Source: a virus. Taken from it: a DNA stretch of 64,000 bases. The notes beneath the pieces were generated by a model. That model worked only from the letters and a program-made list of their open reading frames with translations. It was not told the origin of the DNA and made no database searches. Shown in pieces: positions 83 through 40,619 of the stretch. Made by a program: the position numbers and the translations under genes. The stretch lies in the IMG/VR virus record IMGVR_UViG_3300021600_000005, positions 1 through 64,000 of that record; one strand, given 5' to 3'. Positions within the stretch are counted from its first letter, which is position 1. Each line of letters starts with the position of its first letter.

Positions 83-784
83 ATGAAAAGATTAATTATA
101 ACAGAGGAAGAAAAGATAAGTATAAAAGGTTTATATGAACAAAAGGCTTTATTAAATATTTTAAAGGGACTTGGTAAAAACCTTGGTTTGGGGTTTGAAA
201 AAAAAGTTGGACTTGGGGTATCAAAACAAATTGCAAAATCCCCAACTAAAATAAAATTAAAACCGGTATTAGGTTTGGGTAAGGAACATATAGTATATGA
301 ATCTGCAATATTCCCTAATAAAATAATTAAAGTTGAATTAACACCAGGTACTATCAATAAGTGGTATACTATTTTTAACAATAGACCTGATATTTTTCCA
401 AAGATATATAAGACCATACAATTGGTTGATAAGGAAGGTAAAAAATTAACTGGTGTTGTTATGGAAAAATTAAACACTTCAAAATTTACAAAGTTGTGGT
501 ATGAGATTGAAGATGAAATGTATCTATTCTATAAAAACTCACCAACCTTAGATAAAGAAGGTTCATTGGAGGGGATTGTTAAATATATCAAAGAACCTAA
601 GGTTAAAAAACAATGGGAAGAACTTTTAATATATGTAAAGAAAGAAAAACCTGAGTTAAGTAAAAGTATTGATGAGTTTTCAAAAATGGTGAATGAGTTA
701 TATAAGATTAAAACAAATCCGGATATTAGAAAATATAATTTTGGTTATGACAATAACGGCGTTTTAAAATGTTTGGATATATAA
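83..784 (+). CDS. Protein-kinase-like protein with IxE leader
   Basis: A 233-residue protein that starts with the leader MKRLIITE; a TATTTAT box (71-77) lies 5 bases before the ATG. The rest resembles a minimal kinase fold. A glycine-rich loop GLGKEHIVYE lies near residue 64, and a candidate ATP-binding lysine K83 sits in NKIIKVEL. A hinge-like VVMEKL follows. A catalytic-loop-like stretch has D214 and N219 at the D-x4-N spacing, and the protein ends in LDI, where D232 matches the DFG aspartate. Activation segment and large C-lobe are absent. If the leader is cleaved in the prohead, this would be a packaged phosphotransferase. The fold assignment is inference from motif order. Confidence 0.6.
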   Translation: MKRLIITEEEKISIKGLYEQKALLNILKGLGKNLGLGFEKKVGLGVSKQIAKSPTKIKLKPVLGLGKEHIVYESAIFPNKIIKVELTPGTINKWYTIFNNRPDIFPKIYKTIQLVDKEGKKLTGVVMEKLNTSKFTKLWYEIEDEMYLFYKNSPTLDKEGSLEGIVKYIKEPKVKKQWEELLIYVKKEKPELSKSIDEFSKMVNELYKIKTNPDIRKYNFGYDNNGVLKCLDI

Positions 785-2300: not shown

Positions 2301-2669
2301 ATGAGAATTATTATTACGGAGAACAAGTTGGTGAATATGGTTAACAACACATTGGGGTATGACTTGTCGGATAAGATTGACATGATTACTGATTACTGGG
2401 ATGCCGATGTTCTTATACGCCGTATGTTTGAAAATAAAACAACATTTACCAAACTATTAAATCATTGGGGACCCATGTTTTGGATTAGTACCCCCAAGGA
2501 TGGTAGATGGTTGGCACAACAACGTGAAGGTCGTAAATGGTTTATTTTTAAAGGTGGTTGGGACCGGCGTTGGGGTATTGATGAACACCAATTATTATCT
2601 TATATGGGTCTTGGTATGTTTGGGGTGCCGCTTGATACTATTATTGATAACTTTGTAAAAGAAAAATAA
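2301..2669 (+). CDS. Small unknown protein with IxE leader
   Basis: A 122-residue protein beginning MRIIITE, with a TATTTAT box at 2289-2295, exactly 5 bases before the ATG. The body is aromatic-rich, with several Trp-Gly pairs (HWGPMFW, FKGGWDRRWG), and has no motif I recognise. A hairpin followed by T residues at 2675-2704 closes the unit. Confidence 0.85.
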   Translation: MRIIITENKLVNMVNNTLGYDLSDKIDMITDYWDADVLIRRMFENKTTFTKLLNHWGPMFWISTPKDGRWLAQQREGRKWFIFKGGWDRRWGIDEHQLLSYMGLGMFGVPLDTIIDNFVKEK

Positions 2670-2716: not shown

Positions 2717-3484
2717 ATGACACTACAAGAAAACATACAAAGAATAAGGGAAATGATGATTTCCGAGGAGATGGTCCAATCGGATGCATGGAAATCAATC
2801 AAGAAAACATTAGACATTCTTAAAGAGAAAAAAAAGGTTTTAATTTTAAGTTGTTCCAATAGATATAATTTTGATGAAAAAAATATAGACATACCAAAGT
2901 CTAAGATGATAGCCATGTACCTTAATGATGAGTTGGGGGATAAGTCAGTATTGATTGATGTTCCAGAACTTAATATTGTTCCTTGTGAGGGTAATGTATC
3001 AAAAAAAGATGGTAATAGTTGTGGATTACTAAAATCAGCTCTTAAAGACAAGAAAAAGAACCCATCCGGAGACCATAGATGTTGGGCAAGTATTAACAAT
3101 CCAAAGGATGAGTTATGGAAGATATCCAAAGAGTTATTTGAATCGGATGCGGTTATATTCTTTAGTTCAATTAGATGGGGACAAACCAATATGTTCTACC
3201 AAAACTTAATTGAAAGATTAAATTGGATTGAAAATAGACACACAACATTGGGGGAATCAAATATAGTAAAAGACATTGAGACTGGGTTCATTTGTGTTGG
3301 TCAGAATTGGAATGGGGAGAACGTCACTAAAATACAAAAGGATGTTCATAAGTTCTACGGATTCAAACCAAACGATGATTTATATTGGAACTGGCAGTAT
3401 ACCAAAAATGTGAATGATGAAACTCAAAAATCATATAAGGATTCATATAAGAAGTTTATTAAAGATACTAAATTACCTAAATAA
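2717..3484 (+). CDS. Flavodoxin/NADPH-dependent FMN reductase-like protein with leader
   Basis: A 255-residue protein. Residues 1-20 (MTLQENIQRIREMMISEE) form a leader of the MNLQE type. The body resembles the flavodoxin-like FMN reductase fold: a first beta strand KKVLILSCSNR with a phosphate-binding-loop-like turn, a central VIFFSSIRWGQTNMFYQNLIER segment matching the family's flavin-contact region, and a late FICVGQNWNG strand. The middle has extra cysteines (PCEGN, NSCGLL, HRCWAS). It likely binds FMN and does redox chemistry. The leader suggests it may travel in the head. No TATTTAT box is seen just upstream. Confidence 0.65.
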   Translation: MTLQENIQRIREMMISEEMVQSDAWKSIKKTLDILKEKKKVLILSCSNRYNFDEKNIDIPKSKMIAMYLNDELGDKSVLIDVPELNIVPCEGNVSKKDGNSCGLLKSALKDKKKNPSGDHRCWASINNPKDELWKISKELFESDAVIFFSSIRWGQTNMFYQNLIERLNWIENRHTTLGESNIVKDIETGFICVGQNWNGENVTKIQKDVHKFYGFKPNDDLYWNWQYTKNVNDETQKSYKDSYKKFIKDTKLPK

Positions 3485-3562
3485 TAATTTTCCATTCACT
3501 ATTGTTTATTTTTCTTTTTCTAAAGAATGTAAGTGATATATTTATTATTAAACAATTTTAAT

Positions 3563-4141
3563 ATGGGAAAGATTATTAAACTTACAGAAGGAGATTTGAT
3601 TAAATTAATAAAACGTGTTCTTGAGGAAGGGGAAATCACTGAGAAGTGTTGGTCTGGTTATAAACAAAAAGGGATGAAGACCATGTATGGAAAACGATAT
3701 CCAAATTGTGTAAAGAATGAATCTGAAGATGTGGAAACAAATGAAGCGTCAAGTCCTGCTCAACAATCTGCCATCGCCATCAATATGAAAAAGAAGGGAT
3801 TTAAACCCAAAAATGAAAGTTTATATGAGGACGAATATGGTTCGGTTGAATTGGTTAACTATAGTGAAGAATTTATCAATGAGGCGGTATATCATGGACG
3901 TAAGGTTCAACTTGGAAAGATTATGCAAGGCGACATAAAAAAGTCCAAGGTGTATGTTAAAAATGATAAGGGTAAAGTTGTTAAGGTTAACTTTGGGTTT
4001 GGTGGAAAATCTGCTCATGGTAAACGAATGGTCATTAAAAAAAATAATCCCGCTAGACGTAAATCTTTTAGAGCTCGTATGAAATGTGATACTCCAGGTC
4101 CAAGATGGAAACCAAGATATTGGGCATGTCGAACTTGGTAA
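3563..4141 (+). CDS. Leader-bearing protein with C-terminal KPRYWACRTW motif
   Basis: A 192-residue protein. I chose the ATG at 3563 over the one at 3533 because it begins the leader MGKIIKLTEGDLIKLIKRVL; a TATTTAT box (about 3539-3545) lies upstream. After the leader comes CWSGYKQKGMKTMYGKRYPNCV, a Cys-framed module. The C-terminus is strongly basic, with RRKSFRARMKCDTPGPRWKPRYWACRTW-type composition. From memory, similar KSFRAR...YW-C-W endings recur in phage proteins, but I cannot name the family. Nucleic-acid or capsid contact is plausible. Confidence 0.75.
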   Translation: MGKIIKLTEGDLIKLIKRVLEEGEITEKCWSGYKQKGMKTMYGKRYPNCVKNESEDVETNEASSPAQQSAIAINMKKKGFKPKNESLYEDEYGSVELVNYSEEFINEAVYHGRKVQLGKIMQGDIKKSKVYVKNDKGKVVKVNFGFGGKSAHGKRMVIKKNNPARRKSFRARMKCDTPGPRWKPRYWACRTW

Positions 4142-4150
4142 TAAATTATT

Positions 4151-4181
4151 AACCCCATCTCTAATAAAGGTGGGGTTTTTT
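4151..4181 (+). terminator. Rho-independent terminator, copy 1
   Basis: AACCCCA pairs with TGGGGTT around a 13-base loop and is followed by T6. The same hairpin, loop included, recurs at 4605-4636. Confidence 0.85.
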
Positions 4182-4215
4182 GTTTTATGTTATATTTATA
4201 TATAAAATATATATT

Positions 4216-4584
4216 ATGAAACATTTATTAAATAATTTAACGGAGCAAGAAAAAAATTCAATCCGTGAACAACATACAGGGGGAATGAAAGTGAGTAATT
4301 ACAGATTTAAGGAATTATTAGAAAATAAATTGGGTAACTCTAAACCATTGGTTGAAAAATTTTACGATGAGGATGACACCGATTTTGAGGATGAAGAACT
4401 TTATAGTGGAGCTCCTGAAAGACTAGTTAAACATATGGATAGTGGTAAAATTGTTGGTACACATAAACATGGTGTAGGTTATACTCCTAATGAACATGGA
4501 ATACGTTTGGGACATTCAAGTCACCCCACTTCAATTCCTAATTTTACAAAATTTGACGATGAGGACGATTACGATTTTGAGTAA
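4216..4584 (+). CDS. Acidic protein with MKHLLNNLTE leader
   Basis: A 122-residue protein; the ATG at 4216 begins MKHLLNNLTEQEKNSIREQH, which holds two I/L-x-E sites (LTE, IRE). A TATTTAT sequence lies in the A+T-rich leader before 4200. The rest is acidic (DEDDTDFEDEE, FDDEDDYDFE) with a His/Gly-rich centre (KIVGTHKHGVGYTPNEHG). No enzyme motif. Strong terminators lie on both sides, so it is a single-gene unit. Confidence 0.8.
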   Translation: MKHLLNNLTEQEKNSIREQHTGGMKVSNYRFKELLENKLGNSKPLVEKFYDEDDTDFEDEELYSGAPERLVKHMDSGKIVGTHKHGVGYTPNEHGIRLGHSSHPTSIPNFTKFDDEDDYDFE

Positions 4585-4604
4585 TTAACAACCTTGTACC
4601 TATT

Positions 4605-4636
4605 AACCCCATCTCTAATAAAGGTGGGGTTTTTTA
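4605..4636 (+). terminator. Rho-independent terminator, copy 2
   Basis: Same sequence as the terminator at 4151-4181, including the loop; T6 follows. Confidence 0.85.
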
Positions 4637-4664
4637 TTTAAATAATATTTCTTATATTTGTATT

Positions 4665-5132
4665 ATGATATCTGAAAAATTAAAATCAATTATATTTGAT
4701 AAGTTATATCAGGATTTAAAACATTGTGAGATAATTTCTTACGATAAAAGTATATTTTTTATTGATAGGGATAATAAGTATTGGTATTTTGAATATGAAA
4801 AGGGTGGGACATTATGGTGGAGATACACATTCTTTAATGTTTTTTTTCAATTATTTTCTATAACATATAAGGAATTCCAACCCGTTCTTGGTGAGTGGGT
4901 GGAAGAGGTATTAAATTGTAAGGTATTAACAACAACCAGAAGCCACCTAAACGCTTCCAAATGGATGGAAGAGGTATTAAATTGTAAGGTATTAACAACC
5001 ATAAAAACGTGGCACAACCATTCTATTATGGTGGAAGAGGTATTAAATTGTAAGGTATTAACAACCAAAGGAACCCCCTACCTTGAAAAACATTTGGAAG
5101 ATGTGTTAAATTATAATGAATCTAAAACTTAA
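4665..5132 (+). CDS. WVEETLNLK-family protein with four C-terminal repeats
   Basis: A 155-residue protein related to the genes at 26635, 26984, 39931, 40283 and 40620: its FFQLFSITYKEFQPVLGEW matches their FLESMFSLEYKELQSITKDW. The family's closing motif, W-x-EE-x-LNxK, is repeated here: EEVLNCKVLTT occurs three times about 22 residues apart, then once in decayed form (LEDVLNYN). The DNA units (about 4899-4940, 4963-5001, 5030-5067) are nearly identical. Promoter-like TATATTTG at 4653-4660 lies 4 bases before the ATG, unlike its relatives. The leader is only MISE. Confidence 0.8.
   Translation: MISEKLKSIIFDKLYQDLKHCEIISYDKSIFFIDRDNKYWYFEYEKGGTLWWRYTFFNVFFQLFSITYKEFQPVLGEWVEEVLNCKVLTTTRSHLNASKWMEEVLNCKVLTTIKTWHNHSIMVEEVLNCKVLTTKGTPYLEKHLEDVLNYNESKT
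4899..5104 (+). repeat. Tandem coding repeat (EEVLNCKVLTT units)
   Basis: Three near-identical ~38-base units and a degenerate fourth, separated by unrelated ~25-base spacers, all in frame in the gene at 4665. Spacers differ while units are conserved. Confidence 0.9.
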
Positions 5133-5171
5133 GAATCGTTTTGTATAATAGCCTTATTTATTAGGTAATTG

Positions 5172-5212
5172 ATATCTCGCACGGTCGTAATCAATCCCCC
5201 ACCCCTTTTTTT
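5172..5212 (+). repeat. C-rich intergenic element, copy B
   Basis: Contains ACGGTCGTAATCAATC, then CCCCCACCCC and T7. It is the second copy of the element at 796-848. Confidence 0.5.
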
Positions 5213-5271
5213 AAAGATTGTATATTATTCATTTGAAAAAGAATGTAAGTAATGTATTTATAGATATTATT

Positions 5272-5703
5272 ATGAACCTACAAGAACAAATATCAAAAAT
5301 ACAATCAATGATGGGGAAGAAAAAAGATTCTTCCGTTAAGGTTTTTAATTACAAAAACTACACACTTATTCTGTCTAAAAATCCTTGTGATATATTTACA
5401 CATTTTAAAGTAGAAGATTTACACGGACTAAACTATCAAAAATGTTTGAAACATAAAAATACAAAAGAAAGCGCATATATTGCGGGGCTCACAAATAAAT
5501 CACCAAAAACAAAAAAAGATTTTTTATTTTTAAACTTAAATAGATTAGGTAAAGATGAAGAAAAGATGGGGCTAATTATGCACGAGACAATGCACTTATC
5601 ATTAGAGTTACACAAACATGATGTTAATAAAAAAGAAGAAGAAATAATTACTTGGGCAGAAAAAGAGGCTTATAAAATTTATAATATTATAAAAAAATTA
5701 TGA
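5272..5703 (+). CDS. HExxH metalloprotease with MNLQE leader
   Basis: A 143-residue protein. The ATG at 5272 starts MNLQEQISKIQSMMG, nearly the same leader as the next gene; an upstream ATG at 5218 would add an unlikely extension. H104-E-T-M-H108 in LIMHETMHLSLELH is a zinc-protease signature, and a later Glu-rich helix (EEEIITWAEKEAY) may give the third ligand. TATTTAT lies about 15 bases upstream. Its stop overlaps the next start (ATGA), so the two are translationally linked. Substrate unknown. Confidence 0.75.
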   Translation: MNLQEQISKIQSMMGKKKDSSVKVFNYKNYTLILSKNPCDIFTHFKVEDLHGLNYQKCLKHKNTKESAYIAGLTNKSPKTKKDFLFLNLNRLGKDEEKMGLIMHETMHLSLELHKHDVNKKEEEIITWAEKEAYKIYNIIKKL

Positions 5704-6359
5704 ACCTACAAGAGAACATACAAAGGATTAAATCCATGATGGGATTACTTGTTGAAGAACAACAACGGTCCTATGAAAGTAAACCAATTATTTTGATTGG
5801 ACCTCAAGGAACGGGTAAATCAACTACCGCAAAGGCTTTATCTAAAAAGTTAGGAATTCCATTAGTTACGACTGATATGTCGATGATTGATAAAAAGTAT
5901 GTGAATTTATGTAAAGACGAGCCAGGTGTAGAAGTAAAAATTAAAGAACATCCAACATTAGGAACATACAATGAATCAAATGACGAATATGTTTTTTGTG
6001 TATTAAATAAATTAATGGATGAATATGGTGATAAACAAATTGTTTTAGATGTAGGTGGAACCCACGCATATGCTAGTGAAAAACTATCCTCCGATATTAT
6101 AAAACTATATAGTCAATCACCTAATTTATTTGTGTTTAATGTAAGTGGTGATGAAGATGAGACTTATGAGTTTTTAAAAAAGAGACGTGAAGGTAGAGGT
6201 GAAGAAACTAAAGGTGAGGATGATAAAAAATTCAGAGACACGATTGATAAGTTGAAGAATTATTATAAAGGAACTCAAAAAATATCAATCATAAAGAAAG
6301 ATAAATCTGAAAAAACAACTGATGAATTAGTTGATGAAATAATGACAAAATTATCTTAA
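5700..6359 (+). CDS. P-loop kinase-like protein with MNLQE leader
   Basis: A 219-residue protein. Leader MNLQENIQRIKSMMGLLVEE is followed by a Walker A motif GPQGTGKST at residues 34-42, then AKALSKKLGIPLVTTD, which resembles shikimate kinase and other small NMP-kinase-fold enzymes. IVLDVGGT is a Walker-B-like strand. The lid may be the Arg/Glu-rich KKRREGRGEE. It follows the metalloprotease with an ATGA overlap. The substrate cannot be told; a small-molecule or polynucleotide kinase is possible. Confidence 0.7.
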   Translation: MNLQENIQRIKSMMGLLVEEQQRSYESKPIILIGPQGTGKSTTAKALSKKLGIPLVTTDMSMIDKKYVNLCKDEPGVEVKIKEHPTLGTYNESNDEYVFCVLNKLMDEYGDKQIVLDVGGTHAYASEKLSSDIIKLYSQSPNLFVFNVSGDEDETYEFLKKRREGRGEETKGEDDKKFRDTIDKLKNYYKGTQKISIIKKDKSEKTTDELVDEIMTKLS

Positions 6360-6360
6360 A

Positions 6361-6735
6361 ATGAACCTACAAGAAACCATAAGAAGAATATTAAGGGAAG
6401 AAAGAAAACCATCTAATTTTTTAAGAAGAAGAGTGGAAATGTTGGATTATGAAGTCGAATCTAATTTTTATGAAATTGAACATAGAATAGAGACGTACAG
6501 TGGTATTGATATATGTATAATATATAAAAACGGGGTAAGCTTATTTGAAACAATTATGGAGAATTCAATTAGTAATATGTATTATAATCATTATTCTAAT
6601 ATAGATGATAATTATGATAATTCAAAAGAATGGGCCCATGAATATCTTGATATGGTTAATTATATTAGAAACAAATACCAAGACAAAATAATAAAGTATT
6701 ACGAAGATAATTGTCCCTCTCCAAAATTAAAGTAA
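6361..6735 (+). CDS. LRRR-family small protein with MNLQE leader
   Basis: A 124-residue protein: leader MNLQETIRRILREE, then FLRRR and a mostly helical body ending in IIKYYEDNC. It belongs to a paralog set (6361, 6737, 12537, 12912, 13737) that shares leader + LRRR + helices + a C-terminal I-x-x-YY/FY-x-x-x-C pattern. It starts one base after the preceding stop. Confidence 0.8.
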   Translation: MNLQETIRRILREERKPSNFLRRRVEMLDYEVESNFYEIEHRIETYSGIDICIIYKNGVSLFETIMENSISNMYYNHYSNIDDNYDNSKEWAHEYLDMVNYIRNKYQDKIIKYYEDNCPSPKLK

Positions 6736-6736
6736 T

Positions 6737-7009
6737 ATGAAATATATCATAACTGAATCTCAAAATAATAAATGGTGGTTATTACGAAGACATGATATTG
6801 TAAATCATTCTTTTAAAAAAGCCATTTCAACTATCAATCCTTGTGGTGAAAAATCATTTGATACGTTTAAATATAAAATTTATCGAGTTTTTAATTTTTA
6901 TATGAGTATGATGGATAATGAAATTTCTGATTATGATGAAGTAAAATTTGTGTTTATTGAAATGTTTAATGATAAGTTAACTGAGATATATGATAATAAA
7001 GAATGTTAG
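6737..7009 (+). CDS. LRRR-family small protein with MKYIITE leader
   Basis: A 90-residue protein: MKYIITESQNN, then WWLLRRHD, the conserved PC-like motif NPCGE, and a KLTEIYDNKEC ending. Same paralog set as 6361. It is the last gene of the 5272-7009 operon, with a one-base gap to the gene before. Confidence 0.8.
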   Translation: MKYIITESQNNKWWLLRRHDIVNHSFKKAISTINPCGEKSFDTFKYKIYRVFNFYMSMMDNEISDYDEVKFVFIEMFNDKLTEIYDNKEC

Positions 7010-7060: not shown

Positions 7061-7558
7061 ATGAAAAAAATTATAAGATTAACTGAATCCGATTTAATGA
7101 GATTGGTTAAAAGAGTTATTAATGAACAAATTAAAACCAGTAATGGACCATCAAAGCCTACTGATTCTTACAAAGGGAAAACGGTTAACTTTTATGCAGA
7201 TAATGATAATAAAATGTTTTTTAAAACTGGTGAAATTATTGATGTTTATTCGAAAAGAAATGGTGAAATTAGGTTGGAAATTAATTTTAAAAATTTAAAA
7301 CCTGGCACGCCAACCAGTGAATTTGTGGGAGATACAAGACTTAAATTTAATTGCGCTTTTTCGAACAATGGTTTTGGGGAAGTTAGCACAACAGGCGTTT
7401 TTGGAAAACTTAATCCAAAAATTGCTTATTCGAACTCTTTATCAGATAAATTAAAGAAAGACTTTTGTATGACAAATAAATCCGGAGTACAAGTTCCAAA
7501 GGCAGACTTTGCTTCTACAAACGATTCTCAAGATGATTCTCAAGATGATTTAAGTTAG
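7061..7558 (+). CDS. Protein with the MKKIIRLTESDL leader
   Basis: A 165-residue protein whose first 22 residues almost match those of the minus-strand gene at 9284-9826, although the rest is unrelated. I/L-x-E sites fall at LTE and INE. A TATTTAT box lies about 20 bases before the ATG. The body is beta-rich with no named motif, and the C-terminus is a short DDSQ repeat. A hairpin terminator follows at 7600-7625. Confidence 0.8.
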   Translation: MKKIIRLTESDLMRLVKRVINEQIKTSNGPSKPTDSYKGKTVNFYADNDNKMFFKTGEIIDVYSKRNGEIRLEINFKNLKPGTPTSEFVGDTRLKFNCAFSNNGFGEVSTTGVFGKLNPKIAYSNSLSDKLKKDFCMTNKSGVQVPKADFASTNDSQDDSQDDLS

Positions 7559-7733: not shown

Positions 7734-8687
7734 ATGCAAAGATTTATTATAACTGAAGAGGATAAAAGAAACATACTTGGAATGTATGGTTTAATTAATG
7801 AACAAAACTCAGAACCCCCAATATGTTCAAATACAGGGTGTAAAGGAACTTATACAGGTCCTGAATTTGAAAATGATAATGATATAGCCCATGATTATTC
7901 AAATGTAATTACTAAATCCGTGGCGGCTAAATTAAAAGAACTTTACAAAAGTGGAGATTACGTTAAAGTAAACTTTGACGGAATTAAATTATCTACAAAA
8001 GGAATGGGTACGGGAAATGTGGTCTACGAAGTAGAAATACCTTTTGAAAGTGTTAATAATAAATGTGATGCAAGGACAGGATTTGCTCATGTGGGTGGAT
8101 GGGGACATCCCGGAGCCGGAGTTAACAAAAGAAAAGAAGAGATTTTTAATGATACTACAAAAGATTCTGTTAGAACAAATCCTGTGGTAGGAACAATTAA
8201 TGATATGGAATTCTCAAAAAAAACATCAACAGATGAAGGTCTTGTCGAATATTGGATTCAATGGAAACATTCTTCATTACAAAGTGATTGTGGTCAAAAA
8301 ACTACAAACGGAACATCAGAAAAAGAAAAAGTAACAACAAGTACAGATGAAAAAAAATCAGGTGCTAATTTTAGAAGTGATAGTTTAAGTGGGTTAATAA
8401 ATCAAATTAACCAAGGAGAATTGGTTGATAGTAAAACAAACGGATTTGATTTAAGTAAACCAGTTACTATAGATTTCAAAGAGCATATATATATGTTACA
8501 CGCTCCTGGAGGTAAAGATGGGTTCTTCACTTTAAAATTAGCGTTGAACATTTCTAAGGAACATGAATTAGGACAGTTCCCATCTAAAAAATCTTTAGAA
8601 AACCAAGGTTATACAGTTTGGGATGATGGAACATTCCAACTAAAAGGAGAAGGTGTAAGAGATTGGGCGTTAATGTATAAAAAATAA
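7734..8687 (+). CDS. 317-residue protein with IITE leader
   Basis: The ATG at 7734 is chosen because TATTTAT (7722-7728) lies exactly 5 bases upstream and it opens the leader MQRFIITEEDKRNILGMYGL; a second site is INE. The body has a Cys-Gly module (PPICSNTGCKGTYTGPEF), a HVGGWGHPGAG loop, and a Ser/Thr/Lys linker before a C-terminal domain. No family name can be given. Possible two-domain head cargo. Confidence 0.8.
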   Translation: MQRFIITEEDKRNILGMYGLINEQNSEPPICSNTGCKGTYTGPEFENDNDIAHDYSNVITKSVAAKLKELYKSGDYVKVNFDGIKLSTKGMGTGNVVYEVEIPFESVNNKCDARTGFAHVGGWGHPGAGVNKRKEEIFNDTTKDSVRTNPVVGTINDMEFSKKTSTDEGLVEYWIQWKHSSLQSDCGQKTTNGTSEKEKVTTSTDEKKSGANFRSDSLSGLINQINQGELVDSKTNGFDLSKPVTIDFKEHIYMLHAPGGKDGFFTLKLALNISKEHELGQFPSKKSLENQGYTVWDDGTFQLKGEGVRDWALMYKK

Positions 8688-9260: not shown

Positions 9261-9292
9261 AAAAGGGGAATTACATTCCTTTTTTATTTTGT
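9258..9292. terminator. Bidirectional terminator
   Basis: A5 G4 AA pairs with TTCC T6 around a short loop, between the convergent genes 8799 (+) and 9284 (-). Confidence 0.7.
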
Positions 9293-9826
9293 TATTCTAG
9301 ATTGCAATAGTGTTGAATAGTATTTAAAAACATCAGAGTCAAATTTATATTTTACCAAGAAATCAACACCATTGGAAAAACTATCTAACGTATCATAGTC
9401 TGGATTATAAACACTTAAAGCATTATAATCAATTGTTTTAAGTAAATTTTTTGCTTTTTCTAAGGTTATTGGGGAGGATTCTCCTGTTATGGCGTTAAGT
9501 GTTAATAATACCTCTACGACACTGAATATTTGATTTGAGATTGTCTTTGGTTTAGTAGATAAAGACGACTTAAAATTTTCTGAGTTCTCTCCAAAAACGT
9601 TTTTTAAAAAGTCTTTATGTGAATACTTGCCAAAGTTATTGGACGGCCAAGTAAAACGGGATATTGATTCTTCATCTTTAAGTTGTGGTAACTTATAGGT
9701 TAAATCGCCAATTTCAAGCCCCTTACTTTGATTACTTAATGGTTTTACATTATCCGTTTGTTCATTAATAACTCGTCTTACTAATCTAATCAAATCAGAC
9801 TCTGTTAATCTTATAATTTTTTTCAT
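9284..9826 (-). CDS. Protein with the MKKIIRLTESDL leader
   Basis: A 180-residue protein. Leader MKKIIRLTESDLIRLVRRVI plus NEQ matches that of 7061, while the rest differs. On the coding strand TATATTTAT lies upstream in the divergent gap with 9900. The body is helical and Ser/Lys-rich, function unknown. Confidence 0.8.
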   Translation of the reverse strand: MKKIIRLTESDLIRLVRRVINEQTDNVKPLSNQSKGLEIGDLTYKLPQLKDEESISRFTWPSNNFGKYSHKDFLKNVFGENSENFKSSLSTKPKTISNQIFSVVEVLLTLNAITGESSPITLEKAKNLLKTIDYNALSVYNPDYDTLDSFSNGVDFLVKYKFDSDVFKYYSTLLQSRITK

Positions 9827-9899: not shown

Positions 9900-10256
9900 A
9901 TGAAATACATTATTAGTGAACATAAACTTGATAAATTAATCTTTGAATTTATTGATGATTTTTTTAAAAAACATAGACAAATTATTGATTCATATATAAT
10001 GTATAATCAAAGCGGATTTTATGAGCATGAAGATTTTGAGGCTACAATTGAATATGACCATGAAGACAAAAGGTTATATATTGACAAAAACTTTGTCATG
10101 TTAATTGCTAACATGTTTGGTCTTACCCCCCAACAGTCTCAATTAAAAATTTACGATTGGTTTACAGTAACCGAAAATATTTTTCCAAAGTATATGGAGT
10201 CACCATATTTAGAAGGGTTTTGGAGACAAAATGCCCCTCGTAGGGATGGGAATTAA
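9900..10256 (+). CDS. Small acidic protein with MKYIISE leader
   Basis: A 118-residue protein with a TATTTAT box at 9888-9894 (5-base spacing). After the leader: a helix, an acidic strand region (YEHEDFEATIEYDHEDKR), then FVMLIANMFGLTPQQSQLKIYDW. This layout (leader, helix, strands, 'xxMFGL...W') recurs in 11647, 15656, 19731 and the 39931 array, and suggests one divergent small-domain family. Confidence 0.8.
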   Translation: MKYIISEHKLDKLIFEFIDDFFKKHRQIIDSYIMYNQSGFYEHEDFEATIEYDHEDKRLYIDKNFVMLIANMFGLTPQQSQLKIYDWFTVTENIFPKYMESPYLEGFWRQNAPRRDGN

Positions 10257-10299: not shown

Positions 10300-11595
10300 A
10301 TGAGAATATTAATTAAAGAAAACCAATATGGGTTATTATTAGAACAATTAAATATTTCTTTGAAGTATAATGATATTGTTGACGCGTCGTCAGGTCCTGG
10401 TACTGACCCGGATAAAATATTAAACGCCCTTAATGACATTAAAGACGTTAAAGAATTTAAAACTTTGTTATCTATGTTTAAAGATAAAAAAACCGGATAT
10501 AAAAGTTTTGAAGAAATGGTTAATCAAGAGTACGATAGGTTTAATTATGATGATATTGTAAAATTAAAAGATAGACTATATTCTTTAGGGGTTATAGTTT
10601 CGTTTAGAAAGGCGGAAAATAATTTTGGTCAAAATTTATTTGCGGGCAATTTTAAAATTCAAAGTTATCTGACACGTACTTCAAAAACATCAGAAATTTC
10701 TAAAAAAAACAATATTTTACATGACAAAGAGTTATATGAAAGATATATTAATACATATGAACCTTTATTATCACAAGCAAAAAAATATTGGATTGATTGG
10801 TTATCTAATCCAATTACTAAAGAAAAATTTATTAAAAATTGGTCAGATAGAAATTATAGTAGTGATGATGTTAATAACATTTTTAAAAATTATTTAAATT
10901 CACTAAATAAACTTAAATTATTTTTTTATGATAAGTCAACAAAAACCATCAACAATGTTGATATTGATGACCGTGAAAAAGGAGCTTATGCGTTTGTAGA
11001 TAAAGAGTCACCAAATAATGTTTATATTAATTGTTTCTTGAGTAAGAAAGATGATGACAAATTAGGAACAATGATTCACGAAATTCAACATTTAATTTAT
11101 TTTATACACCCATTAAATCCTGACGTTAAAGTTGGAGAGTTATTTGTTAATAAAAATACTAAAAAAATAGAACCTTTTGATTTTTTTAATAATTTTAGTA
11201 CGGTTTATAATAATAATCATAAAATGAATTATAGTTTGTCCCAAAACATTATAAACACCTCCAAAATTTATAATGTTGATTCTAAAATATTGCAAAATTT
11301 ACTTGTTGTTGCAACCAAAAATGAAAAAAACGGCCCAGGGTATTCTTGTAATGAAAATGAAAAAATGTCTAATATTAGTGCAATAAGAAAATTGTTTAAT
11401 ATTAAACCAGGACAAGACATAACAGTAAAAATGTTGACACCATATATTAAAGGTCAAAAAAAAGATTTAAATGTTTCTTGGTTATTAATTTGTTGGGCTT
11501 TAAAGGATTTCCCAGATATCTCTGAATTGGTTAATAAAATAAACCAATTGGCTTACCAAGATTTTCAAAAACAAAATAATACAAAACTTGTATAA
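10300..11595 (+). CDS. HExxH metalloprotease, 431 residues, with leader
   Basis: The ATG at 10300 lies 5 bases after TATTTAT (10288-10294) and opens MRILIKENQYGLLLEQ (IKE, LLE sites). H260-E-I-Q-H264 in GTMIHEIQHLIYFIHP is a zinc-binding signature; a stretch before it (DREKGAYAFVDKESPNNVYINCF) resembles the strand that often precedes the active helix. A long C-terminal region follows. It is the largest of the five leader-bearing metalloproteases. Confidence 0.75.
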   Translation: MRILIKENQYGLLLEQLNISLKYNDIVDASSGPGTDPDKILNALNDIKDVKEFKTLLSMFKDKKTGYKSFEEMVNQEYDRFNYDDIVKLKDRLYSLGVIVSFRKAENNFGQNLFAGNFKIQSYLTRTSKTSEISKKNNILHDKELYERYINTYEPLLSQAKKYWIDWLSNPITKEKFIKNWSDRNYSSDDVNNIFKNYLNSLNKLKLFFYDKSTKTINNVDIDDREKGAYAFVDKESPNNVYINCFLSKKDDDKLGTMIHEIQHLIYFIHPLNPDVKVGELFVNKNTKKIEPFDFFNNFSTVYNNNHKMNYSLSQNIINTSKIYNVDSKILQNLLVVATKNEKNGPGYSCNENEKMSNISAIRKLFNIKPGQDITVKMLTPYIKGQKKDLNVSWLLICWALKDFPDISELVNKINQLAYQDFQKQNNTKLV

Positions 11596-11646: not shown

Positions 11647-12012
11647 ATGAAATTTATAATAACCGAATCTAGGATAGACCAAATTATTGTTAACTATTTG
11701 GATGAAAATTTTATTCCTAATTATGGTTGGGCAACTATTGATTATTATAGAAGTCAAGTTGCAAAGTGGAATAATTATAATTTTTTAATTGAGGACGATG
11801 AAGCGTATGCGTATTATAGGGAATATGATGGAAATCAAAACGTTTTGGCTGTAAACGATTGGTTAACAGATAAATTAACAGCTTTATTTGGTAATAAGTG
11901 GCCACCAGTTTTTAAAGACTGGTTTGAAGATGCTACCAGTCTTAAGGTTAAAACATTTTTATATGAAAGGGAACATTTTATTAATAACGATAACGATACA
12001 AGTTTTTCATAA
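11647..12012 (+). CDS. Small acidic protein with MKFIITE leader
   Basis: A 121-residue protein; TATTTAT at 11635-11641 gives 5-base spacing. Trp/Tyr-rich body with NDWLTDKLTALFGNKWPPVFKDW, matching the layout of 9900. No catalytic motif. Confidence 0.8.
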   Translation: MKFIITESRIDQIIVNYLDENFIPNYGWATIDYYRSQVAKWNNYNFLIEDDEAYAYYREYDGNQNVLAVNDWLTDKLTALFGNKWPPVFKDWFEDATSLKVKTFLYEREHFINNDNDTSFS

Positions 12013-12536: not shown

Positions 12537-12890
12537 ATGAAACTACGAGAATCCATAAAAAGAATAATAAGGGAAGAAAAAAATGTATCCCCAAGACTTT
12601 TGAGAAGAATTTCTGGGAATGACTTGGAACAAATTTTTATTAATTGTTATTATGAAGCATTAAAGGATGTGGTTCATGAGAAATTCTATTATGAAACCAA
12701 TAGATTGGTTCGGCTTATAAATAGGACAATAAGTTATATGATGGATGAGTTTCACCCTATGTTATATAATACAATACCTGAAGGAGAAATGTGGTATGAT
12801 GAAATACATAATGGATTAGAACGCCACTATAAAGGTCGAATAATTAATTTGTATAATAACAAGACCCCCCGTTCTGACTTTAATTATTAA
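12537..12890 (+). CDS. LRRR-family protein with IREE leader
   Basis: A 117-residue protein. The ATG at 12537, one base after the previous stop, opens MKLRESIKRIIREEKN; the longer reading frame from 12465 overlaps the gene before and is rejected. LLRRISGNDL and the ending HYKGRIINLYNNK fit the LRRR set. Confidence 0.8.
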   Translation: MKLRESIKRIIREEKNVSPRLLRRISGNDLEQIFINCYYEALKDVVHEKFYYETNRLVRLINRTISYMMDEFHPMLYNTIPEGEMWYDEIHNGLERHYKGRIINLYNNKTPRSDFNY

Positions 12891-12911: not shown

Positions 12912-13238
12912 ATGAACATAATAATCACAGAAAGACAAGTTAAGTTAATAATGGAGAGTTCTCCTTCAGCTAGACTTCGTAGAAGATTGTTTGACAAAAA
13001 TTTTCTTCAAGACTTTTTAGATTACGATATTTTAGAATATGAAAATCCTTGTGATTGGGATAATGTTGGAGAATTTGTTGGAGATGTTTGTGATACTCTG
13101 GCAATCCAAACTATTGATTATTTTACAGAACAAACAGGAGAAAAATTATCACCAAAAGAATCTGATTATTTTTATTATTATTGTCTTGATAACTTTGGTA
13201 AGCACATTGAAACTTTTTACAAAAAAAAATGTGCGTAA
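12912..13238 (+). CDS. LRRR-family protein with MNIIITE leader
   Basis: A 108-residue protein; TATTTAT at 12901-12907 (4 bases). ARLRRRLFDKNFLQDF, ENPCDW and FGKHIETFYKKKC are the shared landmarks of the set. Acidic body, function unknown. Confidence 0.85.
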   Translation: MNIIITERQVKLIMESSPSARLRRRLFDKNFLQDFLDYDILEYENPCDWDNVGEFVGDVCDTLAIQTIDYFTEQTGEKLSPKESDYFYYYCLDNFGKHIETFYKKKCA

Positions 13239-14100: not shown

Positions 14101-14526
14101 ATGAAAATTATAATTAACGAACAACAATACCAACAATTATTTGAATCCGATTCTAAAAAAATAGAGTTTTATCAATCATATGTTAATAATTCGTTAAAAA
14201 ATATAATTAATAACTGTGAAAAGGAAGAGCGTTATTATTATAATAATATATGTGATTATGTTAGCTCAATTAACAATATTAAAGTTGTGAGTGTCACAAA
14301 ATCCAGTATAAGTCCTACAACTAAAAAACCATTAATTAATGTTAAAACTCCAATCGTTATTGATATTATGATTAATTATGAATCTATTGTAGATTTATCT
14401 TTTGATGATTTCACACATCAATTAAGGTATGAGATATCTCATCTTTTTGGAAGTATGCCCACAAATAGACCTAATTTTAATATTATTTATCAAAGTAATA
14501 ATCTTAATAAAAATCATAATTGGTAA
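14101..14526 (+). CDS. Small protein with MKIIINE leader
   Basis: A 141-residue protein. The ATG at 14101 opens MKIIINEQQYQQLFE (INE, LFE). The C-terminal half (TPIVIDIMINYESIV...LRYEISHLFG) resembles the alternating strands and helices of the next gene, suggesting related domains. The stop overlaps the next start (TAATG). Confidence 0.8.
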   Translation: MKIIINEQQYQQLFESDSKKIEFYQSYVNNSLKNIINNCEKEERYYYNNICDYVSSINNIKVVSVTKSSISPTTKKPLINVKTPIVIDIMINYESIVDLSFDDFTHQLRYEISHLFGSMPTNRPNFNIIYQSNNLNKNHNW

Positions 14527-14879: not shown

Positions 14880-15233
14880 ATGAAATACCTTATAACTGAG
14901 AATAGAGTAAATGAAACTATTAAAAAATATATTATGACAATGTACCCAATTGTTTATGATGTTAAGTTTAATATTGTCAAAAAAGTTTTAGGGTTCAGTG
15001 AAGGGATGCCGGTAGTTGAAAAAACAGTTATTGTTGTTATTTTTAATGATTCAAATAATGACCTTAATACTGATTTATTGTATTCGACACGTGAGGAAAT
15101 TATAAATTTAGTAGACACAACATTTAATTTAGAACATAGGTTATATGGTAGTAACTGGGATTTTAAATTTTTTAAATTATCTGTTGTTCAACTTGGGACA
15201 TTAACTGCTGGAGATAAAGGTTATCTAAAATAG
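14880..15233 (+). CDS. Small protein with MKYLITE leader
   Basis: A 117-residue protein in the same operon, 12 bases after the previous stop. Strand-rich centre (KTVIVVIFND) and no recognised motif. Ends the 13737-15233 run. Confidence 0.8.
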   Translation: MKYLITENRVNETIKKYIMTMYPIVYDVKFNIVKKVLGFSEGMPVVEKTVIVVIFNDSNNDLNTDLLYSTREEIINLVDTTFNLEHRLYGSNWDFKFFKLSVVQLGTLTAGDKGYLK

Positions 15234-15655: not shown

Positions 15656-16030
15656 ATGAAATATATTATAAATGAAAAAAAATACGATTTAATTTTTAAA
15701 GAATATTTAAACGATATGTTTTCTAATTTTAAAATTAGTATTTTTTTAAAACCAAAAACATCAAAAAATCCATTAAAAAATGGCAGAATTGATTTTAAAC
15801 TTAACGGTAAATTAAAAGCAACTGTATTTTTTTCAAACGATAATTTTATTAATGAAATAATGATTGAGGATAAAATTTACGATGGGATTTTTAATTTTTT
15901 TTCCATGTCAAATTACTACGACATTCAAAAACATTTACTAATGTGGTTTAAAGGTTTTAATATTTTAGAAAATTATAATTTTGATTTATTATCAAGTATT
16001 AATATATTTGATAATGAAGAATACGTTTAG
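15656..16030 (+). CDS. Small protein with MKYIINE leader
   Basis: A 124-residue protein; TATTTAT 15644-15650 (5 bases). Layout leader, helix EYLNDMFS, strands, then FNFFSMSNYYDIQKHLLMWF. EYLNDMFS closely matches DWLNDMFS of the 39931 array, supporting a common small-domain family. Confidence 0.8.
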   Translation: MKYIINEKKYDLIFKEYLNDMFSNFKISIFLKPKTSKNPLKNGRIDFKLNGKLKATVFFSNDNFINEIMIEDKIYDGIFNFFSMSNYYDIQKHLLMWFKGFNILENYNFDLLSSINIFDNEEYV

Positions 16031-18602: not shown

Positions 18603-19244
18603 ATGAAAATAATAATATCCGAAAATAAGTTTTCTAAAATCGCAATAGAACTTCTTAATACTTATGGGTATGTTGGTGCCGCTAAATTAACAAGCAAATC
18701 GCTTTGTGAATTTTTATTATCAATTAAAACTCCAATAAATATTGATTCGGATATGGCACATTCTTTCATTATATCAGCGTTTATAGATGGTGAATTACAA
18801 AACCAAATGGGGGATTTTAAATTACATTATGACAATTTTGAAGGTGTTTTATATTGGTTTTATGAAAACGATAACTTAAATGGTCCTGAATCAGGTTTAA
18901 AATTACCTTATTCTAAATATCATGAAAGAATGGTATCTATGTGTACACCTTTTTGGGATGGTATGTTTATTATTCCAGTGGAAAGTAGTTTTTATCGCAA
19001 TCGTAATTTTAAATCTGAAGAAGATTATTTAGACTCTATTGAATTGAGAAGTAAATTAATAGGTAAAGAAAGTTATACATATTTTAATTCTGGGAACGAA
19101 ATTATAACATGGTTTAATGATTTTTATATTCCTAATGTTTATGATATATTATTAAACACTCATTTACCTAAATACCGATTACTTTATAAGAAATCAGGTT
19201 TAAACGAATCAATTAATTATAATGAACACAAATCTAATAACTGA
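18603..19244 (+). CDS. 213-residue protein with MKIIISE leader
   Basis: ATG chosen at 18603: TATTTAT at 18591-18597 gives 5-base spacing and the leader is canonical. The body includes FEGVLYWFYENDN, CTPFWDGMFIIP and EIITWFNDFYIP. Its end overlaps the next gene by 23 bases. No recognised family. Confidence 0.8.
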   Translation: MKIIISENKFSKIAIELLNTYGYVGAAKLTSKSLCEFLLSIKTPINIDSDMAHSFIISAFIDGELQNQMGDFKLHYDNFEGVLYWFYENDNLNGPESGLKLPYSKYHERMVSMCTPFWDGMFIIPVESSFYRNRNFKSEEDYLDSIELRSKLIGKESYTYFNSGNEIITWFNDFYIPNVYDILLNTHLPKYRLLYKKSGLNESINYNEHKSNN

Positions 19245-19730: not shown

Positions 19731-20153
19731 ATGAAATTTATTATAAATGAAAATAATTTAATAAAAGGGTTTAATAATTATATGGATTATGAGCTTAGTA
19801 AATTATTAAAATTTAATCGTATCCCTACTCGACCATCAAGTATTTTTTTTTACGATAAACACAGCGGTGAAATAATTTTTGAAATTGATAATTCAAAAAA
19901 AACAAAACGAACTTTTTTTATAATTAATTGGGGGTTTTTTGAAACCCTTAATAATATGTTTCCTTATAATTCACCTGGTCTTGGTAAAATCGGAGTTGAT
20001 TCTAAAAAATTATTGATTAATTGGGCTAAAGAAAAATTAAGTGATTTAATTTTTTATGATGATGTTATTTTTGATTTCGACGAATATGATATGACTTCAA
20101 ATTCAATTTTTGATATGGCTCATATACAAGGTGTTGATTTAAACAATAATTAA
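19731..20153 (+). CDS. Small protein with MKFIINE leader
   Basis: A 140-residue protein, last of the 18603-20153 operon. FFIINWGFFETLNNMFPY...KKLLINWAKEKL repeats the hydrophobic 'LxxMF...W' layout of 9900 and 39931. Function unknown. Confidence 0.8.
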   Translation: MKFIINENNLIKGFNNYMDYELSKLLKFNRIPTRPSSIFFYDKHSGEIIFEIDNSKKTKRTFFIINWGFFETLNNMFPYNSPGLGKIGVDSKKLLINWAKEKLSDLIFYDDVIFDFDEYDMTSNSIFDMAHIQGVDLNNN

Positions 20154-26638: not shown

Positions 26639-26943
26639 GGATAATTATTCATATGTAGGTATATAGTTGAGGTAGTTATATAACCCTTCAAATTTAATGT
26701 TTCCTCCACCCAGTCTTTTGTAATCGACTGAAGTTCTTTATATTCAAGTGAAAACATGGATTCTAAAAATGACCAAATTGTATCATAATCAAAATAAAAT
26801 TGTTTATTTATCCTATCTATCTGAGCAAGTCTTTTTTTATTTTTAACATAATAAGAACCAATAATTTCAACATCAGAAAACATATCGTTTAACCAATCCT
26901 TAACCAATCTTGCCCTTTGCGTTTTTGTTATGTTAATTTTCAT
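26635..26943 (-). CDS. WVEETLNLK-family protein (minus copy 1)
   Basis: 102 residues: MKINITKTQRARLVKDWLNDMFS, then FDYDTIWSFLESMFSLEYKELQSITKDWVEETLNLK. TATTTAT lies 5 bases upstream on the coding strand (26949-26955). About 85 per cent of positions are shared with 26984 and the 39931 array by eye. Function unknown. Confidence 0.85.
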   Translation of the reverse strand: MKINITKTQRARLVKDWLNDMFSDVEIIGSYYVKNKKRLAQIDRINKQFYFDYDTIWSFLESMFSLEYKELQSITKDWVEETLNLKGYITTSTIYLHMNNYP

Positions 26944-26983
26944 TTAATATAAATACTTTAAAATTTAACGACTCTTTCACCGA

Positions 26984-27289
26984 TTATGTCCTCCATATAG
27001 TAGTATTGGGATTATAAGTAGTTTTATGGCCCTTCAAATTTAATGTTTCTTCCACCCAGTCTTCTGTAATAGCTTGCAGTTCCCTATATTCAAGTGAAAA
27101 CACGGATTCTAAAAATAACCAAATTGTATTATAATCAAACCAAAACTCCTTATTTTTTTTATCATGGAAACCAATGTTTTTTTTATTTTTAACATAATAA
27201 GACCCAAGTATTTCAGCATCAGAAAACATATCGTTTAACCAATCCTTAACCAATCTTGCCCTTTGTGTTTTTGTTATGTTAATTTTCAT
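26984..27289 (-). CDS. WVEETLNLK-family protein (minus copy 2)
   Basis: 101 residues, a paralog of 26635; starts 8 bases after the endolysin stop, in the same orientation, with no TATTTAT box of its own. The copies differ mainly in the central strand region after SYYVKN. Confidence 0.85.
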   Translation of the reverse strand: MKINITKTQRARLVKDWLNDMFSDAEILGSYYVKNKKNIGFHDKKNKEFWFDYNTIWLFLESVFSLEYRELQAITEDWVEETLNLKGHKTTYNPNTTIWRT

Positions 27290-27296
27290 TTTCTTA

Positions 27297-31108: not shown

Positions 31109-31744
31109 TTAATCCCACCACCACGACATACGTTCATTTAAAATTTTAAACAAAAGACTATGAGCTTTTTGTTGGTTATAATGACCGATATTCATAGCGA
31201 TTCTTTGTTTTATTTCAACTGTGTTTTCTTCTTCTCCTATTTTAATATTAAAAATTTGAAGTTTTTTGTTGGATAAAACTTTTTTATATGAAAGTGGGTA
31301 CTTTTTAAAATACGAATCAAAGTCTTCGTGTATTATCTTTATGTCTAATGTTTTATTTTCAGTATCTCCAGGAATATCTAAAAAATTATATTCGGTTTTT
31401 TCATAGTCTGAGTATTCAATTGAATAGAAATCTTCTTGTACTCGTTGAATAAGATTCAAACATAAAGTCATATCTCGATTGTCTCGTTCAACTTCACTAT
31501 GTCTATTAGACGTAACAATATATTTACGTTGTAGTTCAATCTTACGTTTTAACACTTCAAAAATATAATTACTATCCCAATGTCTATCATTAAAAATAAC
31601 TGAAAACCAATCAATAAGATTTTTTACACCTCTTAAAAATTCTAAAAACCATACCGGTAAATAATTTTTCCAGGAGTTTCTATCCCAAGCGCTATCTTTC
31701 GGCATTGGAAGTTTTTTGATTATTTTGTTATTATAAATGTCCAT
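31109..31744 (-). CDS. Conserved phage protein ending SWWWD
   Basis: 211 residues, Trp-rich at both ends (SAWDRNSWKNYLPVWF; ERMSWWWD). Helical centre. Upstream on the coding strand is a host-type TATCTTTA. Function unknown. Confidence 0.7.
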   Translation of the reverse strand: MDIYNNKIIKKLPMPKDSAWDRNSWKNYLPVWFLEFLRGVKNLIDWFSVIFNDRHWDSNYIFEVLKRKIELQRKYIVTSNRHSEVERDNRDMTLCLNLIQRVQEDFYSIEYSDYEKTEYNFLDIPGDTENKTLDIKIIHEDFDSYFKKYPLSYKKVLSNKKLQIFNIKIGEEENTVEIKQRIAMNIGHYNQQKAHSLLFKILNERMSWWWD

Positions 31745-31800
31745 TTTTTACGTTAAATATTTTATAAAGATATGTAAAAAATATTAATAATCAAATAAAA

Positions 31801-33162: not shown

Positions 33163-33589
33163 TTTTATATCTTTTAATAAAATCTGAGCAAATACCTTCG
33201 CATTTGTTCACATTTTCATTGTATAATTCTGGTTTGACAGCAATGCTACCAATAATTGGTTGAGTCCCAGGATAAGCCCATATGTAATTTTTAGAAGTTA
33301 ATGTTACAGTATCTTCTTCATGCCAAAAATAATGTATATCATATTTTTTCATTTCCACTAACGCGTCCAAATTTTTGGCGTGGCACCATAATTTTTTATT
33401 CATCAAAAACTTATAATCCACATCATATTTTGCTTCATCATGTCCTAACATAAATTTTCCATTAATATACCAAACATCAATTTCAACATCGTAACCTAAC
33501 TTAATTGCCGATTCAATATATGTAGGGGTATTTTCAAGTTCATGAAATTCACCATCAATATTTCCTCTGTGAGATATTAGTATTGTCAT
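33155..33589 (-). CDS. Glycerophosphodiesterase-like protein
   Basis: 144 residues. SHRGN at the start, then LENTPTYIESAIKLGYDVEIDVW and GKFMLGHDE match the active-site region of glycerophosphodiester phosphodiesterases, but the protein is half the usual length. It lies between genes for sugar activation and sugar transfer, so the substrate may be a sugar phosphodiester. Confidence 0.7.
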   Translation of the reverse strand: MTILISHRGNIDGEFHELENTPTYIESAIKLGYDVEIDVWYINGKFMLGHDEAKYDVDYKFLMNKKLWCHAKNLDALVEMKKYDIHYFWHEEDTVTLTSKNYIWAYPGTQPIIGSIAVKPELYNENVNKCEGICSDFIKRYKND

Positions 33590-34359: not shown

Positions 34360-34380
34360 ATATAAACAATTTAATATAAA

Positions 34381-35244: not shown

Positions 35245-35257
35245 TTAAATTAAATTT

Positions 35258-38842: not shown

Positions 38843-39886
38843 ATGAATATTATAATTAAAGAACATCAATATTTAAAAATATTAACTGAATCTTTAGGGG
38901 TTTCTAGAGCAAGTTTACATTATGTTAATGTGATTTATAAAATATTGGAACCTACGGTCTTAAAATTTTTAAATTCAAATCGTGATTTAAATGAAAAAAT
39001 AAATATTGATTTAAATGATTTAAAGGAAGTTTATCAAGATTTTCCTGAAGATTATATTGAATTTCCAATTGAACAAATTGTTATTAATCTTAATTGTAAA
39101 AAAATAAATAAAATTAATGACAATGCGAATTTTTTTTCTGGGGGAGGGGCTTATAGTATTAGACCAAAAAAAGAAAAAACAACCCATGTAAAAATTCCAT
39201 CTAAATTCTTACCAAAATATGTTACAGACGAAATAAATAAAACTATTATTTCTGAGTTTGATTTTACGGTTACTATATTTAAAAACTATGAAGAAACTAA
39301 TAAAGACGATTTATTGTTTTTATTACGTGATGCAATATCTCATGAATGTAACCATATGTTTGAGTATTATAAAAGAAACGAAAACAATGCTCCCGATGTG
39401 GATAACAGATTTACCTGGTCAGGAGTTAAAAATTACAACGTACCTAAAAACATTTGGAATATTTGGGAACAATTTACAACAATGCTTTATTTTTCTCAAC
39501 CACAAGAAATGAATGCTATGACACAAGAAGTTTATAGTGTTAGTTTAAGGAAATCTTTTGAAGAATTTAAACAAGGTGGTTATTGGCGCTCCGCAATTGT
39601 TATGGAAAATTTTGACGCTGACGAATTTATGGACAATTTAGTTAATGAGATTAATAAATATAATCCAGACTATATTAAACCTATACTAATAAATTTAAGA
39701 AATTGGTTTATAAAAGATTATGTAAATTATGGGGTTTCTGAAAAACTTCCAATAAATCAAAAACTTTTAAGTAAAAAAGAAATTTTTAGTTTGACAAAAT
39801 TTTTTGAACCAAGAATACGGTTAGCCGGTAAAAAACTTAAATCTAATTTCATTAGGACTTTTTCTATCCCTAGAGAATCGATATAA
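38843..39886 (+). CDS. HExxH metalloprotease with MNIIIKE leader
   Basis: 347 residues. Leader MNIIIKEHQYLKILTE (IKE, LTE); TATTTAT at 38829-38835, 7 bases before the ATG. H167-E-C-N-H171 in AISHECNHMFEYYKR, with a downstream EMNAMTQEVY that may provide the third ligand. Three WVEETLNLK-family genes follow, the first preceded by a remnant of that family's tail. Confidence 0.75.
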   Translation: MNIIIKEHQYLKILTESLGVSRASLHYVNVIYKILEPTVLKFLNSNRDLNEKINIDLNDLKEVYQDFPEDYIEFPIEQIVINLNCKKINKINDNANFFSGGGAYSIRPKKEKTTHVKIPSKFLPKYVTDEINKTIISEFDFTVTIFKNYEETNKDDLLFLLRDAISHECNHMFEYYKRNENNAPDVDNRFTWSGVKNYNVPKNIWNIWEQFTTMLYFSQPQEMNAMTQEVYSVSLRKSFEEFKQGGYWRSAIVMENFDADEFMDNLVNEINKYNPDYIKPILINLRNWFIKDYVNYGVSEKLPINQKLLSKKEIFSLTKFFEPRIRLAGKKLKSNFIRTFSIPRESI

Positions 39887-39930
39887 TGACTGGTCAGAAG
39901 AAACATTAAATTTTAAGGTATTTATATAAA

Positions 39931-40245
39931 ATGAAAATTAACATAACTAAAACACAAAGAGCAAGATTGGTTAAGGATTGGTTAAACGATATGTTTTCTG
40001 GTGCTGAAATAAAAAATACTGATTATGGTAATTCTTATTATATTAAAAATGAAAAAAACCTTGCTTTTCAGAATAAAAAAAATAAAGATTTTCGGTTTGA
40101 TTACGACCTAATTTGGTCATTTTTAGAATCCATTTTTTCACTTGAATATGAAGAACTGCAATCTATCACAAAAGACTGGTTGGACGAGACATTAAATTTG
40201 AAGGGATATACAACATCTTATTTACGCAACTTATCTTGGACATAG
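39931..40245 (+). CDS. WVEETLNLK-family protein (array 1)
   Basis: 104 residues: MKINITKTQRARLVKDWLND start, central strand region with an extra insert, then FLESIFSLEYEELQSITKDW and LDETLNLKGYTT. TATTTAT at 39919-39925 (5 bases). After its TAG the frame continues as LGETLNLKVFI and a second stop. Confidence 0.85.
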   Translation: MKINITKTQRARLVKDWLNDMFSGAEIKNTDYGNSYYIKNEKNLAFQNKKNKDFRFDYDLIWSFLESIFSLEYEELQSITKDWLDETLNLKGYTTSYLRNLSWT

Positions 40246-40282
40246 TTGGGCGAGACATTAAATTTGAAGGTATTTATATAAA

Positions 40283-40582: not shown

Positions 40583-40619
40583 GTGGATGAAACATTAAAT
40601 TTGAAAGTAATTATATAAA

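Follow-up and report, generated by a model that had tools for sequence, protein, structure and literature searches.

Shared N-terminal leaders as candidate capsid-targeting propeptides on unrelated enzymes of an uncultured T4-type phage

The principle of the T4 CTS system, in which a short conserved N-terminus is carried by unrelated proteins (IPI, IPII, IPIII and Alt), is already known. The CTS corresponds to the first 10 residues of IPIII, and the prohead protease gp21 has the published cleavage motif L/I-X-E (PMC9026906). Alt is a packaged ADP-ribosyltransferase (PMC9026906, PMC3012670). In the phages phiKZ, 201phi2-1 and SPN3US a gp21-related protease cuts many head proteins on the C-terminal side of Glu, and some of the inner-body or ejection proteins processed in this way are injected (PMC9026906, PMC13282480). 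Delivery with DNA has also been proposed for the polyvalent proteins of phages and conjugative elements, among whose domains are ART-PolyVal and peptidase domains (PMC5512222).

The DNA stretch analysed here (the window) comprises positions 1-64,000 of the 90,168-base virus record IMGVR_UViG_3300021600_000005. Using leader HMMs trained on this record and related viral contigs, we identified 27 leader-bearing genes in the 90-kb record, falling into four or five leader classes. As in T4, a short conserved N-terminus sits on unrelated proteins, its end matches the specificity of gp21, and T4-type head genes and an S77 protease are found in the same phage; the ART-like proteins among those behind the leaders (the cargo) are comparable to Alt. 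Unlike in T4, a single partial genome has no fewer than four or five leader classes and as many as 27 leader genes, orthologues have exchanged leaders, and packaging is so far predicted. The T4 CTS peptide itself presumably differs from the leaders described here. Glu-directed processing by a gp21-related protease, predicted for this phage, is a likeness to the phiKZ-type phages, but the record is T4-type (Portal_T4, Gp23), and phiKZ-type propeptides are not known to fall into a small set of common leader classes. ART-PolyVal and peptidase domains occur both in polyvalent proteins and in the cargo, whereas polyvalent proteins have several domains per chain and the cargo proteins are mostly short and have a common leader. 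The literature searched describes the T4 CTS and phiKZ-type proteolysis; these leaders were not found there, nor was any precedent for the number of cargo genes, the number of leader classes or the exchange at the predicted cleavage site.

We put the probability that the leaders are T4-like capsid-targeting propeptides for loading and injecting enzymes at roughly 80%. During head assembly the N-terminal peptide, in classes A and B an amphipathic helix, would anchor its protein in the core of the prohead. Cleavage after [L/I/V]-x-E by the gp21-type S77 protease would follow and set the mature enzyme free within the head, and the cargo would enter the next host cell together with the DNA at infection. 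We observe the leaders, their end motif, the protease and T4-type head genes, the site in the capsid protein and the exchange of leaders between orthologues; we infer that the proteins bind to the core and are cleaved, packaged and injected, and likewise what each cargo does in the host. If this reading is right, hundreds of phage proteins of unknown function would be probable injected effectors, recognisable from sequence alone.

Leader-bearing genes and their cargo

A sequence-only reading of this DNA had reported nearly the same leader on four genes, starting at 2717, 5272, 5700 and 6361. All four are present as placed, with the N-terminal sequences MTLQENIQRIREMMISEE, MNLQEQISKIQSMMG, MNLQENIQRIKSMMGLLVEE and MNLQETIRRILREE, respectively, and a fifth class A leader, MKLRESIKRIIREE, is found at 12537 (Table 1). 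That reading missed two genes between the named ones that bear other leaders, 3563 (class B) and 4216 (D-like), and also the spread of leaders over 27 genes of the record. Its domain calls stand in broad terms: the structure model of 2717, with a mean pLDDT of only 64, resembles FMN-reductase/flavodoxin structures of the SP1951, SsuE and YhdA type (Foldseek probability about 1.0, best E 4e-4), and 5700 is a P-loop kinase by an AAA/AAA_18/SKI match (E 3e-8). The call of 5272 as a zincin goes back to its HExxH motif (MHETMHLSLELH), since the protein has no Pfam match, and no family could be assigned to the 6361 protein. By eye, several further leader-like N-termini are seen, among them those at 4216 (MKHLLNNLTEQEKNSIREQ), 45450 (MDLNNKINITES) and 68988 (MKNLINEEIIRVKELMGILNEN). 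Gene 4665-5132, which has no recognised leader, contains three copies of a WMEEVLNCKVLTT-like repeat.

Table 1. Leaders and predicted protease sites located in the window (a slash marks the predicted cleavage position)
Feature	Position	Strand	Gene and remarks
Class D leader MKRLIITEEEKISIKGLYE/Q	83..139	+	83-784
Class C leader MRIIITENK	2301..2327	+	2301-2669
Class A1 leader MTLQENIQRIREMMISE	2717..2767	+	2717-3484, FMN-reductase/flavodoxin-like cargo; predicted cut after ISE
Class B leader MGKIIKLTEGDLIKLIKRVLEE	3563..3628	+	3563-4141
Second predicted protease site INE/A	3875..3886	+	codons 105-108 of 3563 protein
Class A1 leader MNLQEQISKIQSMMG	5272..5316	+	5272-5703, HExxH protein; without [LIV]xE cut site
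Class A1 leader MNLQENIQRIKSMMGLLVE	5700..5756	+	5700-6359, P-loop kinase; predicted cut after LVE
Class A2 leader MNLQETIRRILRE	6361..6399	+	6361-6735, RRR-motif protein; predicted cut after LRE
Class C leader MKYIITESQ	6737..6763	+	6737-7009
Class B leader MKKIIRLTESDLMRLVKRVINE/Q	7061..7126	+	7061-7558
Class D leader MQRFIITEEDKRNILGMYGLINE/Q	7734..7802	+	7734-8687
Class B leader MKKIIRLTESDLIRLVRRVINE/Q	9761..9826	-	9284-9826, minus strand
Class C leader MKYIISEHK	9900..9926	+	9900-10256
Class C leader MRILIKENQ	10300..10326	+	10300-11595, HExxH protein
Class C leader MKFIITESR	11647..11673	+	11647-12012
Class A2 leader MKLRESIKRIIRE	12537..12575	+	12537-12890, RR-motif protein
Class C leader MNIIITERQ	12912..12938	+	12912-13238, RRR-motif protein
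Class C leader MKIIINEQQ	14101..14127	+	14101-14526
Class C leader MKYLITENR	14880..14906	+	14880-15233
Class C leader MKYIINEKK	15656..15682	+	15656-16030
Class C leader MKIIISENK	18603..18629	+	18603-19244
Class C leader MKFIINENN	19731..19757	+	19731-20153
Class C leader MNIIIKEHQ	38843..38869	+	38843-39886, HExxH protein

Leaders were found on 21 of the 37 genes in the first 20 kb of the record and on 5 of the 16 after 79,000. The leader genes are concentrated at both record ends (79,000-90,168 and 1-20,200); in a circular genome, or one joined at this point, the two clusters would form a single block. Counting this record, we collected 807 leader genes (621 non-redundant) across 323 loci with five leader models. 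The class consensus sequences are MNLQENIQRIKEMMGVINE (A1), MNLQESIRRILREE (A2), MKKIIRLTESDLTRIVKRVINE (B) and MKxIITESQ (C), class D being looser and of the IITEEEK type. The conserved class A leader occurs far above chance expectation: a degenerate 30-nt pattern for its first ten residues matched at least 120 viral contig stretches and nothing in 257 Gb of bacterial and archaeal genomes. Matches to the class B pattern numbered at least 120 among viral stretches, with one more in a metagenome-assembled genome. A looser pattern for this class was present in 24 of 26 records and its reversed control in 0 of 26, these records being the source of loci already collected and mostly large leader-bearing contigs. 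No match to two leader peptides or to the 2717 protein was obtained in the 50,697 records of INPHARED, and none of the leader classes found here occurs in the cultured relative immuto; in this analysis the leaders were seen only in uncultured phages. The host of such leader-bearing phages is likely to belong to the Bacteroidota.

The cargo of the 621 non-redundant genes forms 332 clusters that are mutually unrelated at BLAST E<1e-4. The cargo proteins scanned with Pfam are mostly short and have at most one recognised effector domain, many being without any match. Across the leader set the domains include kinases, metallopeptidase-like, ART-like, HD, pterin dehydratase and FMN-reductase-like proteins, enzymes which, if the capsid-targeting reading is right, could be active during the first minutes of infection. 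Among the class A1 alignment representatives there was a single Pfam match to regions 2 and 4 of ECF sigma factors; a regex search for a sigma-factor cargo member found none.

The leader end and the T4-type head genes

Conservation of the leaders begins at Met and, in classes A and B, drops off at [L/I/V]-x-E. In class B the information falls from 3.43 bits at E22 to 0.98, 0.66 and then 0.46 at the positions that follow. Selecting genes with unrelated cargo on residues 1-10 or 1-12 alone and comparing the same genes further along, we find [LIVM]xE at the leader end in 54 of 61 class A genes, against 11 of 60 at position 45 and beyond (Fisher p 1e-15), and in 72 of 81 class B genes, against 9 of 80 (Fisher p 3e-25). 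The end of the leader in both classes matches the gp21 motif; an exception is 5272, with MMGKKKDSS and without an [LIV]xE. In the 3563 family, [LI][NT]E/A directly precedes the conserved C-terminal domain in 27/27 homologues, whatever lies upstream. A CWSGYKQKGMKTMYGKRYPNCV region of gene 3563-4141 is the source of the Synechococcus phage DNA matches of the 2717-6759 stretch, and it matches several phrogs of unknown function.

The record itself encodes a Peptidase_S77 protein (PF03420, the gp21 family; E 3e-24), Portal_T4 (PF07230; E 3e-75) and the Gp23 capsid protein (PF07068; E 3e-73). The capsid protein has LINE/A at residues 57-61, identical in all 48 of 48 aligned capsid proteins. Among leader contigs with a length of 80 kb or above, 37 of 51 have S77; of the control contigs, selected with a thymidylate synthase (thyA) motif, 7 of 31 do (p 1e-5). 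The single control contig with class B leaders does have S77. S77-negative leader contigs look like fragments, because all 38 of 38 are also without gp23 and a terminase match was obtained in just one of those tested, near the contig end. One of the 38, contig G085, repeats the leader matches of G064 with a shift of about 16.5 kb, and the part it would lack is where G064 has its S77 gene. S77-negative contigs may, however, bear a capsid type escaping the models used, and the co-occurrence of leaders and S77 could stem from common descent of one T4-type clade.

A different destination for the leaders has to be weighed against these results. They might address another part of the virion (tail, baseplate or shell surface) or a complex outside the head, with the [LIV]xE cut, if made at all, serving some other reason. 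The cargo does include peptidoglycan hydrolases (lysozyme, VanY and M23) that could be tail parts, and several leader classes stand side by side in one phage. Moreover, while class A and B leaders are amphipathic, with a helical moment above that of shuffled sequences, those of classes C and D were not amphipathic in the same test. Since class C conservation also runs on beyond E7 (S8/Q9), classes C and D may act differently; they are less certain as capsid-targeting leaders and could have another role. We nevertheless regard another destination as unlikely for the leaders as a whole: they end in the motif of the head protease, INE is also found at the capsid protein's own site, a gp23 capsid gene was not found on any leader contig lacking S77, and many of the recognised cargo domains are those of intracellular-type enzymes.

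Leader exchange and leader DNA

The sequence-only reading had held that leaders conserved where domains are not are hard to explain by common descent of whole genes, and the unrelated cargo clusters bear this out. More than one leader class is found in 22 of the 332, although single linkage may partly chain the largest of them, so that pairwise cases carry the weight. Two such cases are the clearest. The first is the cargo of L189 (class A1) and L316 (class B), which has 76% identity across 176 aa although the leaders differ. The second is the 7734 protein (class D), whose orthologues on L098, L180 and L199 have a class A1 leader instead; it is 45% identical to that of L199, the sequences switching at LINEQ and LLIEQ. 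Where orthologous cargo differs in its leader, the switch falls at or near the predicted cut. On L299 a 7734 homologue (a minus-strand ORF ending at 9647) has a lipoprotein-like signal peptide in place of the phage leader. Such leaderless homologues had been named as evidence that would tell against the sequence-only reading; among full-length homologues of 2717 none was found, 24 of 24 retaining an A1 leader, and exceptions such as that of 7734 concern other cargo. Pterin dehydratase cargo occurs with leaders A1, A2 and C. The native N-terminus of PCD enzymes resembles the leader, and this case is for that reason weak evidence of exchange.

The same reading had suggested comparing leader DNA for recombination junctions. 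In this comparison recent copying of cassettes is not strongly signalled, because the synonymous excess within loci is slight and the upstream DNA is unshared. Between leaders with unrelated cargo, synonymous-codon identity is 0.64 within a locus and 0.58 between contigs in class B, and 0.69 and 0.62 in class A1. Identity in the 30 nt upstream is 0.36-0.45 within and 0.36-0.41 between loci. These values point to selection acting on the peptide and to exchanges that are old or rare. One leader peptide is encoded with widely varying synonymous sites, even inside one genome. A role of the leaders at the nucleotide level, as translation-initiation or recombination cassettes whose peptide is incidental, could draw on the slight within-locus excess and on the first codons ATGAACCTACAAGA, which recur in three genes of the record, but it is made highly improbable by this variability, the unshared upstream DNA and the end of conservation at the protease motif. 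Equally improbable is a single old paralogous family that retained its N-terminus while the bodies diverged past recognition: some cargo clusters are indeed large paralogous families with shared leaders, e.g. the RRR-motif proteins, but the bodies are of unrelated folds (FMN-reductase-like, P-loop kinase, HD, pterin dehydratase and ART-like) and one cargo can have different leaders.

Within the capsid-targeting reading we tentatively entertain, without favouring it, a modular address system: several exchangeable leader classes would direct dozens of small enzymes to a single virion, and cargo would pass from one address to another by recombination. The classes would then perhaps serve different head layers or assembly times, and the enzyme payload delivered would be much larger than that of T4.

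Other features of the record

By sequence, the record also encodes DnaK, a Clp-type ATPase, a UvrC-like protein, FKBP and ThyA; the DnaK, ThyA, UvrC-like and Clp-type genes are all without a leader, a point in favour of the capsid-targeting reading. A cassette of sugar-nucleotide and glycosyltransferase-like genes occupies window positions 31109-36076. Five paralogues of MKINITKTQRARLVKDWLNDMF, at 26674-27292 and 39885-40906 of the window, are arranged as inverted repeats around about 13 kb, with arms of up to 273 nt at 89% and 84 nt at 96% identity. The DNA between them contains mostly minus-strand genes and its GC skew flips there; the flanked segment is possibly invertible or recombined.
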